From a virus: a stretch of DNA of 20,494 nucleotides. Location of the stretch: positions 1 to 20,494 of the IMG/VR virus record IMGVR_UViG_3300032241_000034. One strand, 5' to 3'. Positions 2,776 through 12,442 of the stretch are shown here, piece after piece. Made by a program: the position numbers and the translations under genes. The first letter of the stretch is position 1. Each line of letters starts with the position of its first letter. The notes below the pieces were generated by a model. The model saw nothing but the letters and a program-made list of their open reading frames with translations, made no database searches and had not been told where the DNA came from.

Positions 2776-3135
2776 ATGCCAATGTTCCTTAATACTGAGG
2801 GTAATGCATCAATAGCAATCTTTATTTGCGACAGATGTAGGATGAAAAGACCTATTATTCAGGCTATGCCTGACCCCAATTTTCCTGGTTTGAAGGTTTG
2901 TCAGCAAAACTGTGCTGATCAAAAAGATCCTTATCGATTACCTGCTAGAAAGACTGAGAAGATTACATTACAATTTCCAAGACCTGATGTTAGTGTGGCA
3001 GTTGAGCCCTATGATATTGTTACTTACCCATATGGAGGTGAGGTTCTTAGTACTCAGCAGTCTACTAATAATCCAAGTGACAATGGAAATGTTGACGTTA
3101 TCTATACACAACCTAGCCCACCTGAACCTAAATAA
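2776..3135 (+). CDS. Small four-cysteine (zinc-ribbon-like) phage protein
   Basis: A 119-residue protein. The cysteine pattern C18-x2-C21 ... C42-x3-C46 (CDRC and CQQNC) suggests a small metal-binding knuckle in the first 50 residues, followed by a Pro-rich, probably flexible C-terminal half ending SPPEPK. GAGGTG just before the ATG serves as ribosome binding site and overlaps the end of the upstream connector-like gene. Its TAA shares one base with the ATG of the long fibre gene, so translation is probably coupled. Proteins of this type sit between connector-like and fibre genes in related phages, from memory. Whether it is a virion part or an assembly factor cannot be told. Confidence 0.7.
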   Translation: MPMFLNTEGNASIAIFICDRCRMKRPIIQAMPDPNFPGLKVCQQNCADQKDPYRLPARKTEKITLQFPRPDVSVAVEPYDIVTYPYGGEVLSTQQSTNNPSDNGNVDVIYTQPSPPEPK

Positions 3136-8662: not shown

Positions 8663-9886
8663 ATGAGTTCAATTGCATCAGGAACAACGACAACGACAGG
8701 CTTAGTATATACGTCTGATACAACAGGTAATCTAGTTTTACAAACCAACGGCACGACTACTGCAGTAACAATAGATACAAGTCAAAGGGTTGGTATAGGT
8801 ACAAGTAGTCCTAGCACTTTTTTACAAATAGGTAGTACTACAGCAAATTCTAATTCAGTTATTACATTTGGAAAAACAACATCAACATTGCAATCCACAT
8901 TACCTACAATTTACTGTGGGAGTGTAATTCAATCAGGAACTTCTCCAGATTTAGTTTTGCAAACAGGCTCTACAAGTGGTGGAGTTGTTTTTGTAACAGG
9001 CGGTAGTTTAAATAACAATCTAATTTATGACTCCAACGGTAACTTAGGATTAGGAGTTACTCCTAGTGCTTGGCAATCTGGAAGAAAAGCATTTCAAGTG
9101 GGTAATGCTTCAATAAATTCTGTTACACCTTCTCAAAATCAAATTGGTGCTAATTTTTATTATGATGGTACAAATAATAAATACATTTCATCTGACTATG
9201 CCTCGTTATACCAACAATTAAGTGGCACTCACCAATGGTATATAGCACCATCAGGAACTGCGGGTAACACAATTACAGGCTTTAGTACTGCGGCAATGAC
9301 ACTAGATAATAGTGGTAATTTGTTGGTTGGGGCAACTGCTACATCTGTAACAACTGGTGGATTTGCTTTACAACCCGCTTCAGGCGGTTCCGCTATAAAT
9401 ATTGGACATACTTCTGGAACATCGTCTGGGTCTTCCTACACGCAATTTTTGTATAACGGTTCTGCAATTGGAACTATTACACAAAACGGAACAACAGCAG
9501 TAGCGTACAACACCACATCAGACCGAAGACTTAAAACTAATATTGCAGACCTCACAAATAGCGGAACAGTAATTGATTCTCTTAAACCAAGATCATTTAC
9601 TTGGATTTCTGATAATTCTGCTGATGCAGGATTTATTGCCGATGAGATTCAACAAGTCTTGCCAAAAGCAGTAACTGGACAACCTAATGCAACAAAAGAA
9701 GAAGAGTACGAAGTAACTCCTGCGGTTAAAGATTCTGAAGGAAATATCACAACTCCTGCGGTCATGGGCACAAGAACAGTTCCTGATTATCAAATGATTG
9801 ACGCATCACAACCAGAGTTAATTGCTTATTTGGTAGCAGAAGTTCAATCCCTAAGAGCAAGATTAAAAGCGGCTAACATAGCTTAA
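8663..9886 (+). CDS. Tail fibre with C-terminal Peptidase_S74 chaperone (407 aa)
   Basis: A 407-residue fibre. The N-terminal module 'TGLVYTSDTTGNLVLQTNG' and 'TIDTSQRVGIGTSSP' is related to the N-termini at 9897 and 10606. The middle has 'LGLGVTPSAW' and 'AMTLDNSGNLLVG', shared with the fibre at 10606. The C-terminal ~122 residues are a Peptidase_S74 intramolecular chaperone: it starts at S286 in 'TTSDRRLKTNI' with K291 five residues later. That Ser-Lys spacing matches the catalytic dyad of endosialidase chaperones, which fold the trimer and then self-cleave just before the Ser. The tail ends in a coiled-coil-like 'AEVQSLRARLKAAN'. AAAGGATTAAT precedes the ATG. Relative to the other two S74 domains it has a ~25-residue insertion around 'KEEEYEVTPAVKDSEG'. 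Confidence 0.9.
   Translation: MSSIASGTTTTTGLVYTSDTTGNLVLQTNGTTTAVTIDTSQRVGIGTSSPSTFLQIGSTTANSNSVITFGKTTSTLQSTLPTIYCGSVIQSGTSPDLVLQTGSTSGGVVFVTGGSLNNNLIYDSNGNLGLGVTPSAWQSGRKAFQVGNASINSVTPSQNQIGANFYYDGTNNKYISSDYASLYQQLSGTHQWYIAPSGTAGNTITGFSTAAMTLDNSGNLLVGATATSVTTGGFALQPASGGSAINIGHTSGTSSGSSYTQFLYNGSAIGTITQNGTTAVAYNTTSDRRLKTNIADLTNSGTVIDSLKPRSFTWISDNSADAGFIADEIQQVLPKAVTGQPNATKEEEYEVTPAVKDSEGNITTPAVMGTRTVPDYQMIDASQPELIAYLVAEVQSLRARLKAANIA
9294..9330 (+). repeat. 37-bp repeat, copy 1 (in fibre at 8663)
   Basis: This segment matches 11009-11045 at 36 of 37 positions, differing at 9312 (g) versus 11027 (c). It encodes 'AMTLDNSGNLLVG'. Nearby exact repeats are 9056-9073 with 10768-10785 (18 bp) and 9252-9267 with 10970-10985 (16 bp), all in the same order in both genes. 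Confidence 0.9.
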
Positions 9887-9896
9887 GGAACATAAT

Positions 9897-10622
9897 ATGT
9901 CATCAAATATTCTCAAAGCCGACAATGGCGTATCAAGTGGCACAACGGGTTTAGTCTATACCGCTGGGAGTGCTTGTGCCGTTTATTGGCTGAAGTTATC
10001 TGAGCATGATGATATGTTTACTCAAGGTTATATTGGCGTTTCTTCCGATGTTGAGTTTCGTTGGAGACAGCATTTAAAGAAAAAAGAAAATCCTCACCTT
10101 GAGCACGCTATTAATAAGTATGGTGAACACAGCATAATCAAGCAAATAGTACTTATTGCCGAAAGAGATTACTGCTTAGATATTGAGAAAAAGCTACGTC
10201 CAGATCCAAAGATTGGATGGAATATAGCTATTGGCGGAGGAAATCCACCAACGGATTATGGAGTTAAGTTCCAAAAAGGTCATGTAAGTTGGAAGACAGG
10301 CGTGCCAGTTCCCGAGGAAACACGCCAGAAGATTGCAAATACACTAAAGGGTAATATTCCTTGGAACAAAGGCAAAAAAGGATTACAGGCGGCTTGGAAT
10401 AAAGGAAAGCCTTGGTCAGAAGAAGTCCGTAAACAAATGTCAGTGACAAGGAAGGGTAGAAAACCATCTGAAGAGACTAGACAAAAGAAGAGAGAAGCTA
10501 TGCTAGGTAGAAAGCCTTACGAGATGACCGATGAGATTAGGGCAAAAATATCCGCAGGATTAAAGAGAAGACATCAACTATTGGTTGAAGCAAAGGAGCA
10601 AGATAATGGCATCAATAATTAA
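9897..10622 (+). CDS. GIY-YIG homing endonuclease with NUMOD3-like repeats, fused to a fibre N-terminus
   Basis: A 241-residue protein in three parts. Residues 1-25 ('ILKADNGVSSGTTGLVYTA') are a tail-fibre N-terminus, like that of the gene at 10606. Residues ~28-117 are a GIY-YIG nuclease: V29-Y30-W31 in place of GIY, then Y45-I46-G47. R55 and H59 lie 10 and 14 residues after that Tyr, the same spacing as R27 and H31 of I-TevI. E97 in 'DIEKKL' is the likely catalytic Glu and N109 in 'GWNIA' the conserved Asn. Residues ~134-226 hold about four NUMOD3-like DNA-binding units ('PEETRQKIANTLKGN', 'SEEVRKQMSVTRKG', 'SEETRQKKREAMLG', 'TDEIRAKISAGLKRR'). It is expected to nick or cut fibre DNA and spread by repair. 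AAGGAACATAAT precedes the ATG. Its last codons overlap the next fibre's start by 17 bases. Confidence 0.9.
   Translation: MSSNILKADNGVSSGTTGLVYTAGSACAVYWLKLSEHDDMFTQGYIGVSSDVEFRWRQHLKKKENPHLEHAINKYGEHSIIKQIVLIAERDYCLDIEKKLRPDPKIGWNIAIGGGNPPTDYGVKFQKGHVSWKTGVPVPEETRQKIANTLKGNIPWNKGKKGLQAAWNKGKPWSEEVRKQMSVTRKGRKPSEETRQKKREAMLGRKPYEMTDEIRAKISAGLKRRHQLLVEAKEQDNGINN
9972..10605 (+). mobile_element. Probable homing-endonuclease insertion within a fibre gene 5' end (approximate limits)
   Basis: Fibre-like coding stops at about codon 25 of the ORF at 9897, and fibre coding resumes with a fresh start at 10606. The material between is the endonuclease body and its DNA-binding repeats. The left limit is placed where similarity to other fibre N-termini ends, so it is uncertain by a few bases. 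I see no intron-like conserved core or terminal repeats, so this looks like a free-standing homing gene, not an intron or transposon. Confidence 0.55.
10592..10598 (+). promoter_or_regulatory. Ribosome binding site deciding the start at 10606
   Basis: AAAGGAG lies seven bases before the ATG at 10606, inside the last codons of the endonuclease ORF. It decides against the in-frame TTG at 10585, which precedes this site. It also means the downstream fibre's translation signal lies inside the endonuclease coding sequence. Confidence 0.8.
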
Positions 10623-11550
10623 GGCTGACAACGGTGTTTCGTCAGGTGTGACGGGAATAGTACAGACTGCCGATTCCAGTGGGCAACTTGCTTTGCAAAC
10701 GACCACTTCAGGTGGTACGGCAACTACTGCAATAACGATAGATAACTCACAAAACGTGGGTGTGGGTGTTACTCCTAGTGCTTGGACAACTTCAGGTTCT
10801 ACTAAAGCATTAGAAATGACTAATGGAGTTTCTTTATCTTCTTATGGTAGTGCCGCTGGTCTGTATCAAAACGCTTATGTTGCTAGTGGTGGCTACACTT
10901 ATAAAACTACTGCAACCGCATCTGCGTATCAACAAGGTGGAGGTGTTCATTATTGGTTAAATGCACCACCAGGAACTGCGGGTAATCCTATAACCACTTT
11001 TACCCAAGCAATGACACTAGATAATACTGGTAATTTGTTGGTTGGACAAACAACGCAAACTTATACATCAGTTGGTTTTAGCGTATTAGGTACTGGAAGT
11101 GCCGCACCTGGAACAGTTAACTCCACTTTATCAACTTCAACTAATGCAGTAAGTTCATACAATTTATATTCAACAGGGGCAAGTGCTTTTAGATTTTATG
11201 TGACAATGGATGGTACTATTCATGCCACATCAACTTCTATTACTGCTATTTCTGATGTATCACTTAAGACTAATATTAAACCTTTAGAAACAGGTCTTGC
11301 AGAAATTAATCGTCTTCAACCTAGAAGGTTTGACTGGCTTGATCAAACTGTAAATGAAGGTACAAACATAGCAGGGTTTATTTCTCAAGAAGTGCAAGAA
11401 GTTTTACCTGATTTAACCCCTAATTTTAAATACAACGAAACAGAAACAAAACTTGGTTTAAAAATGGGTGACATGATACCCACAATGGTAAAAGCCATTC
11501 AGGAGTTATCAGCAGAAGTAACGGCTCTTAAAGCCAAAATTGGAGTTTAA
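10606..11550 (+). CDS. Tail fibre with C-terminal Peptidase_S74 chaperone (314 aa)
   Basis: A 314-residue fibre started at the ATG with an AAAGGAG site, not the upstream TTG at 10585. The N-terminus MASIIKADNGVSSGVTGIVQ shares about 18 of 25 residues with the N-terminus of the endonuclease fusion. The middle ('VGVGVTPSAW', 'PPGTAGNPITTF', 'AMTLDNTGNLLVG') is paralogous to the fibre at 8663, including a near-identical 37-bp DNA stretch. The chaperone begins at S216 in 'ISDVSLKTNI' with K221 as dyad partner, and contains 'NRLQPRRFDW' and 'GFISQEVQEVLPDL'. It ends in a predicted coiled coil ('QELSAEVTALKAKIGV'). It is expected to trimerise and release its chaperone by self-cleavage before S216. 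Confidence 0.9.
   Translation: MASIIKADNGVSSGVTGIVQTADSSGQLALQTTTSGGTATTAITIDNSQNVGVGVTPSAWTTSGSTKALEMTNGVSLSSYGSAAGLYQNAYVASGGYTYKTTATASAYQQGGGVHYWLNAPPGTAGNPITTFTQAMTLDNTGNLLVGQTTQTYTSVGFSVLGTGSAAPGTVNSTLSTSTNAVSSYNLYSTGASAFRFYVTMDGTIHATSTSITAISDVSLKTNIKPLETGLAEINRLQPRRFDWLDQTVNEGTNIAGFISQEVQEVLPDLTPNFKYNETETKLGLKMGDMIPTMVKAIQELSAEVTALKAKIGV
11009..11045 (+). repeat. 37-bp repeat, copy 2 (in fibre at 10606)
   Basis: Partner of 9294-9330, identical at 36 of 37 positions and in the same reading frame and gene position. Such blocks could allow recombination or gene conversion between the two fibre genes on either side of the endonuclease. Confidence 0.9.
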
Positions 11551-11551
11551 T

Positions 11552-12442
11552 ATGACAACAGTTATTGGGGGATCAGCCCCATCAATTACGTTTAGTGACT
11601 CAACAACACAGTCTACTGCGTTTACAGGTCTAAACCAATCGGCTTCGCCTTATACAACCTCGTTGGGGTATCAGGCATTAAATAGCAATACTGGAGCTAA
11701 CAATACAGTAGTAGGGTATCAAGCGGGATATAGTAATACAACAGGCACTTACAATAATTATTTAGGATATCAAGCAGGATATTCAAACAGCACTTCAACA
11801 CAAAACAATGCTTTTGGATACTATGCTTTACAGGCTTGCACAGGTGGTTCTAATTCTGCATTTGGTCATGGTGCAGGATATTTAATAACTACTGGTTCAT
11901 ATAACACTATCCTTGGAGCTTACTCAGGCAACCAAGGTGGTTTAGACATTCGTACATCTAGTAGTTATATTGTTCTATCAGATGGGGCTGGAAATCCAAG
12001 GGGTTATTTCAATAGTACTGGCGACTGGGTTGTTACAGTAGGAGATATAAACTGTTATGGTTCTTATTCAAATACAACCGCTAACGCAGCAAACTTAAAT
12101 GTTGCATCTGATGGATACTTTAGGCGGTCAACTTCAGCTTTGAAATACAAAACAAATGTTCGTGATTTGCCAACAATAGATATTACTAAATTTAGACCAG
12201 TAGTTTACAACTCTAATTGCGAAGGTGATGATAAAACTGTTGACCATTTTGGTTTTATTGCAGATGAAGTTGACCAAGCAGGATATAAACAATTAGTATC
12301 TTATGGCGCACAAGGAGAAGTTGAAGGCTTCCAATACGAACGTATGACCGCAGTATTGACTCAACAAGTTCAACAATTACTTGCAACCGTAACAGCCCAA
12401 GCAACAGAGATAGCCGCACTTAAAGCTAAGGTAGGAATATGA
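11552..12442 (+). CDS. Tail fibre with YadA-like repeats and variant Peptidase_S74 chaperone (296 aa)
   Basis: A 296-residue fibre, starting at the ATG at 11552 with GGAG just upstream; the in-frame TTG at 11540 lies before that site. Residues ~30-125 carry repeats of the type 'LGYQALNSNTGANNTVVGYQ' and 'AGYSNTTGTYNNYLGYQAGY', like YadA-type adhesin heads and quite different from the two fibres upstream. The chaperone begins near S195 with K200 ('TSALKYKTNV'). The Ser-Lys spacing of five is kept, but the usual Asp after Ser is Ala. It continues with 'FGFIADEVDQAGYKQLVSYG' and ends in a coiled coil, 'TAQATEIAALKAKVGI'. The TGA overlaps the following holin-like gene by four bases (ATGA). It is probably a further receptor-binding fibre; whether it still self-cleaves is open. 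Confidence 0.9.
   Translation: MTTVIGGSAPSITFSDSTTQSTAFTGLNQSASPYTTSLGYQALNSNTGANNTVVGYQAGYSNTTGTYNNYLGYQAGYSNSTSTQNNAFGYYALQACTGGSNSAFGHGAGYLITTGSYNTILGAYSGNQGGLDIRTSSSYIVLSDGAGNPRGYFNSTGDWVVTVGDINCYGSYSNTTANAANLNVASDGYFRRSTSALKYKTNVRDLPTIDITKFRPVVYNSNCEGDDKTVDHFGFIADEVDQAGYKQLVSYGAQGEVEGFQYERMTAVLTQQVQQLLATVTAQATEIAALKAKVGI

Follow-up and report, generated by a model that had tools for sequence, protein, structure and literature searches.

The stretch analyzed here, a 20.5-kb virus record that we call the window, comes from a tailed phage whose tail module is akin to that of siphovirus ctpbd312, the tail adaptor being 80% identical. Between positions 8663 and 12442, it carries three fibre-like genes, two of them with clear S74 chaperone domains, and these genes and the features mapped between them lie on the plus strand. 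The slot 1 fibre (8663 to 9886) was recognized by Pfam PF13884 and as a tail fibre in PHROGs; the slot 2 fibre (10606 to 11550; PF13884, E = 2e-13) is intact and is position-equivalent to 5995 to 6942 of the relative L083, with 66% identity; and the next fibre or tail gene (11552 to 12442) occupies the same third slot in the relatives L083 and L101. Throughout the cluster and its relatives, the fibre genes are mosaics of a common N-terminal block, a variable middle, and swappable S74 C-terminal ends, and the S74 ends of slot 2 are near identical between L083 and the window.

Between slots 1 and 2 lies an open reading frame of 241 amino acids (9897 to 10622), which a first-pass annotation, made from the sequence alone, had read as a GIY-YIG homing endonuclease carrying the N terminus of a tail fibre. 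This reading holds. The product matches the PHROG homing endonuclease family (E = 4e-22) and the Pfam NUMOD3 DNA-binding motif (PF07460; E = 1e-8) at residues 140 to 161 (10314 to 10379), while its GIY-YIG score is marginal, 21.9 bits lying just below the cutoff of 22.6, which the relatives L206 (24.9) and L208 (24.3) exceed. The nuclease residues that had been called intact are indeed conserved: in alignments of 26 to 29 relatives, Y45, R55, E97, and N109 are invariant, as is Y30, and H59 is nearly so. In an AlphaFold2 model built with 29 relatives, most of the core has a pLDDT above 80, its first strand being predicted from residue 26, whereas residues 1 to 20 score only 33 to 37 and residues 1 to 23, all below 50, are predicted to be unstructured. 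A Foldseek search with the whole model gave no significant match, the sole GIY-YIG nuclease among the matches listed being Slx1 (6seh; E = 4), and a search of the PDB by sequence returned nothing significant. The zinc-finger-like C-terminal end present in many relatives is missing. We considered whether the C-terminal EAK might be the end of a fibre (TALEAKVG) and rejected this; the AAGGAGCAA/KEQ end is common to MEP301-type nucleases, so that the end of the window nuclease is probably native.

The catalytic core begins at residue 26 to 28, and reading of the open reading frame sequence revealed no in-frame ATG, GTG, or TTG between the fibre ATG and the core. The core can thus be translated only from the fibre start, making the fusion obligatory for an intact enzyme. 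What precedes the core (9972 to 10622, as delimited by Pfam, PHROGs, the catalytic residues, and the structure model) is a captured stretch of fibre codons 1 to 25 (MSSNILKADNGVSSGTTGLVYTAGS; 9897 to 9971), the sole start of the nuclease, so that fibre codons are fused in frame to a nuclease core without a start of its own. The first-pass annotation had compared residues 1 to 25 with the fibre at 10606, and we recovered the 18 of 25 matching residues that it reported, with one gap. Its further statement that the two segments diverge far more at the DNA level stands for that comparison (39 of 75 nucleotides differ without gaps and 29 with them) but not for the true donor, since the fibre at 10606 is not the source. 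As judged from DNA comparison, the leader derives from another fibre allele, MSSNILKADNG..., which is intact in nuclease-free relatives (L083, L101, and L127 to L135), where the fibre starts MSSNILKADNGVSSGTTGLVYTAGNDGTLQLA. The window leader differs from the intact fibres of L083, L101, and L127 at only 5 to 7 of 75 nucleotides (5 for L127 and likewise for L130), and the leader of the fused nuclease in L149 (contig L149/L118) is identical to L127 and L130 at all 75, indicating that either the capture itself or the last exchange with an intact fibre was recent.

Relatives that lack the nuclease provide the corresponding empty site. L083 and L101 both have an intact fibre with the same N terminus and the same upstream flank, and in the alignment of L083 with the window, the flank match continues through codon 25. 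The left flank (9797 to 9896), comprising the end of fibre 1 and the intergenic stretch, is one base off that of the L083 MSSNIL fibre in pairwise alignment and includes a Shine-Dalgarno-like AAGGA (9885 to 9889) that is the same in nuclease-free L083. Originally the fibre gene's, this site is now the nuclease's, which bears out the earlier proposal that the insertion took over a fibre gene's start together with its ribosome site.

At the other end of the nuclease, the fibre is made whole again. A second Shine-Dalgarno-like site, AAAGGAG (10592 to 10598), lies within the nuclease 3' end, with similar sites at the equivalent position in L001, L206, and L207, and is followed by a second, DNA-diverged version of fibre codons 1 to 31 (MASIIKADNGVSSGVTGIVQTADSSGQLALQ; 10606 to 10698), which overlaps the nuclease stop codon (10620 to 10622) and gives the two genes a 17-nucleotide overlap. 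From codon 32 onward, an 87-nucleotide right-hand arm (10699 to 10785) agrees at 86 positions with the MSSNIL-type fibre that is intact in L101. Compared with an intact fibre, the order in the window is therefore codons 1 to 25, nuclease, alternative codons 1 to 31, and the remaining fibre, with the original codons 26 to 31 absent. This clean two-arm comparison pertains to the window alone, and its arms come from two different relatives, L083 on the left and L101 on the right. We rejected the reading that fibre exons are spliced around a group I intron: no Rfam match was found in the window, no splicing domain was matched in Pfam, and the downstream fibre has a full N terminus of its own.

The fused nuclease is present in the window, L001, L002, and L149 and absent from L083, L101, and L127 to L135. 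L001 shares the entire block of nuclease and fibre start with the window (9892 to 10766; 97%), with the MASIIK codons 1 to 31 again sitting between the nuclease and the right arm as an alternative version of the separated gene end; its flanking fibres are different genes, and the upstream fibres differ before the same fused nuclease in L001, L002, and L149. The nuclease-free loci that we read have either an MSSNIL or an MASxIK N terminus, never both, and the two alleles occur together only in the nuclease-bearing loci of the window and L001. The contigs of L002 and L149/L118 both break inside the fused nuclease, at residues 50 to 70, probably owing to strain mixtures there.

Other nucleases also lie at gene starts in these phages. 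A second, different NUMOD3 nuclease directly precedes the slot 1 fibre in L001 (126 to 776) and L002 (4387 to 5037), its stop overlapping the fibre ATG, so that fibre starts are targeted by more than one nuclease family. Another GIY-YIG/NUMOD3 type (MNAHIYIVTN...) is found at the start of a fibre or tail gene in L101 (5195 to 6001) and L012 (2276 to 3010), ending on the next ATG. In L199/L200 (153 to 668), a nuclease of the same clade as that of the window precedes a homologue of the window open reading frame at 2776 to 3135 (MPxFLNTEGN...), a nonfibre gene of the tail region; in the window, no nuclease is inserted before that gene.

The layout is not confined to the close relatives of the window. 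A search with the core recovered about 70 distinct nuclease relatives, most of them directly before tail-fibre starts and many with overlapping stop and start codons. Most have a short beginning of their own, M-x-S-V-Y-W, only 2 to 4 residues ahead of the core, so that fusion is not needed for function. Searching these relatives for fused fibre N termini, as the first-pass annotation had proposed, revealed seven further cases. In the cultured phage MEP301 (L206), the nuclease begins MASIKLQGDTS and the fibre MASIKLQGDVSG; the corresponding pairs are MASIKLKGDTS and MASIKLKGDVSG in L207, MSSIKLTGDTS and MSSIKLQGSTSG in L208, MSSIVIQGDTV and MSSLVIQGDTSG in L209, MSNIAMQGGAT in both genes of L263 (both from TTG), MTVSINGT and MTVSISGT in L275, and MASIVV and MASIVVSG in L281. 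MEP301 is a Methylophilales phage whose nuclease is annotated only as an endonuclease (PMC8024684). Over 52 nuclease-fibre pairs, N-terminal identities sum to 78, compared with a mean of 38.7 after shuffling of partners (standard deviation, 6.2; maximum, 67; none of 20,000 shuffles reaching 78), part of the relatedness among pairs remaining in this shuffle. On a core tree, which is short and poorly resolved at depth, the fused state must have changed at least five times, and supported branches force three of these changes.

Two comparisons reveal how the start segment behaves. The nucleases of MEP301 and L207, which have unrelated genes upstream, share about 99% identity between codon 11 and roughly codon 150, and yet 8 of their first 30 nucleotides differ, while 25 of the first 27 nucleotides of the L207 nuclease are those of the fibre that follows it. 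L278, sister to L263, matches it in flank and core but lacks a fibre N terminus, whereas the 11-residue leader of L263 is identical at every residue to that of the fibre downstream, although 8 codons differ. Near-identical nucleases have thus exchanged their start segments, which are supplied by whichever fibre gene houses the nuclease. In L263, the nuclease (2953) and the next fibre (3761) both appear to start from TTG after a strong ribosome site; gene calling limited to ATG would thus miss the true N termini. For MEP301, no nuclease-free close relative at the same site was found among MEP401, MEP402, and Venkman, the upstream match with MEP401 ending 13 nucleotides before the nuclease start, where a different fibre follows. 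Only distant relatives of gp19 were found in viral contigs, and bacterial genomes yielded seven matches, only two of them near this clade, with no new fused case.

Considering these data, we propose that a free-standing GIY-YIG homing endonuclease was inserted in frame inside the 5' end of a fibre gene and that the fibre was kept via a second start, a reading that we regard as probable. In this model, the nuclease gene, having lost its own start codon, would be translated from the ribosome site, the start codon, and the first 25 codons of the fibre. Within its 3' end and overlapping its last codons lie a fresh ribosome site and the start and N terminus (codons 1 to 31) of another fibre allele, with the fibre resuming at codon 32. 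The nuclease may cut intact fibre genes near codon 26, whereupon repair would copy the nuclease and the replacement N terminus into the cut genes, and the different DNA of the replacement may protect it from cutting or from recombinational loss. More tentatively, and with somewhat less than even confidence, we envisage a natural home-and-rescue family whose members would cut conserved fibre 5' ends, enter in frame, and bring or select an uncuttable N terminus with a ribosome site, so that the fibre works and neighboring variants spread along with the nuclease.

Where nuclease and fibre encode the same residue, 49 of 69 codons across the fused loci differ between the two starts. Such a difference in spelling is consistent with selection that disfavors self-cutting or recombinational deletion. 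Since silent positions vary freely among the fibre starts of these phages, the plain use of a different natural allele would be consistent with it as well, and we do not claim it as a proven adaptation. In L207 and L263, the nearest known copy of the nuclease leader is the phage's own downstream N terminus; strong divergence of the two starts is thus not universal. With respect to the origin of the second copy, the L207 case fits a duplication of the recipient's start, and the window case fits the arrival of another allele.

The layout might instead reflect passive deletion within a tandem fibre array: the nuclease would have entered one fibre after codon 25, the rest of that fibre would have been lost, and the apparent second start would be simply that of the next, paralogous fibre. 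These phages do bear arrays of fibres with similar N termini, fibre number differs between relatives, and so do the neighbors of the nuclease-bearing loci. Nevertheless, the two N-terminal alleles stand in tandem in none of the nuclease-free loci that we read, the fibre count is the same in the window as in L083 or L101, the right arm picks up a fibre of the same type at codon 32, and the layout is repeated in other lineages; we therefore consider a passive deletion unlikely. That the nuclease is the pseudogene-like remnant of a chance fusion, decaying within a hypervariable fibre cassette, strikes us as very improbable. The missing zinc-finger-like end and the subthreshold GIY-YIG score could be taken as signs of decay, but the frame is open in the window and L001 with the catalytic residues intact, the whole nuclease gene differs between the two by 10 synonymous and 5 nonsynonymous changes, and the fusion has recurred independently.

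The remaining question is whether the peptide does anything in the nuclease. The first-pass annotation had suggested that it may be under selection in both genes and had speculated that the nuclease could be loaded into virions. Docking of the enzyme onto tails by the fibre peptide, for carriage into the next host, would be in keeping with captured N termini that recur and follow the neighboring fibre. However, the captured length ranges from about 4 to 25 residues across the fused relatives, most relatives having none at all, residues 1 to 23 are predicted to be disordered, and nothing marks these first residues as the docking part of the fibre. With donor DNA this close to identical, there is no conservation in need of explanation, and protein-level similarity is no evidence of selection on the peptide within the nuclease. 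Between the window and L001, codons 1 to 25 have three synonymous changes and one nonsynonymous change (7 and 4 in the rest of the gene), too few for a selection test. Relatives with the same endonuclease and an unrelated N terminus, which that annotation had named as pointing to passive fusion, do exist in the cores that start at M-x-S-V-Y-W. Since most relatives lack a fibre N terminus and the peptide is predicted to be unstructured, neither virion loading nor selection on the peptide finds support; we hold the docking explanation to be extremely improbable, and the 25-residue peptide is most likely a passive leader.

According to the general view, a homing endonuclease avoids damage to its target gene only if it is housed in an intron or intein or placed between genes. 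The present group appears to repeat another route, namely, borrowing the start of its target and leaving the target a second one, and the recurrence of this layout in several phage lineages suggests a way to spread without breaking the invaded gene. The recurrent combination of a hijacked start and a second start would be a new form of intronless homing; we found no description of fused fibre starts on nucleases among the open-access papers searched.

Intronless homing itself is known from the free-standing GIY-YIG endonucleases of T-even phages, the Seg family (PMC2988022), which the window nuclease resembles in lacking an intron, lying among structural genes, being variably present, and having start/stop overlaps that hint at translational coupling. 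Seg-type enzymes, however, occupy intergenic positions and cleave at distances of hundreds or thousands of base pairs (PMC2988022), whereas the window nuclease sits inside a fibre 5' end, uses the start codon and codons of its host gene, and has a second fibre start behind it. Phage free-standing homing endonucleases are usually intergenic, and a gene that is entered is split, as with mobE in nrdA of Aeromonas phage Aeh1, likewise an intronless insertion within a phage coding sequence (PMC2988022). There, nrdA became two reassembling polypeptides (PMC2988022), while the window fibre is made whole by its second start. Another parallel is found in fungal mitochondria, where mobile endonuclease open reading frames (in Allomyces atp6 and in Glomus atp6, atp9, cox2, and nad3) are inserted in a gene, sometimes in phase, and bring a foreign replacement for the severed end (PMC3630166). 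In that case, the C terminus is replaced (PMC3630166); in the phages, it is the N terminus together with a ribosome site, and several times over, so that the phage arrangement is an N-terminal mirror image of the fungal one plus a ribosome-site takeover. Engineered home-and-rescue drives (HomeR; PMC7968924) also home into a gene while supplying the disrupted part; they are CRISPR based, whereas the phage version is natural and the cleavage resistance of its replacement is putative.

The phage arrangement may thus be a natural counterpart to engineered rescue drives, and one that is testable in the cultured phage MEP301. A borrowed start would also explain how a nuclease survives inside fast-evolving tail-fibre clusters and would tie such nucleases to the spread of fibre variants. 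Translation of an endonuclease as a fusion from the start of its host gene has a precedent in fungal mitochondrial intron open reading frames that are in frame with the upstream exon. Those host genes are restored by splicing, whereas no intron was found in the window. For annotation, the locus carries a caution, in that a protein with an N-terminal fibre match need be neither a fibre nor a virion component.
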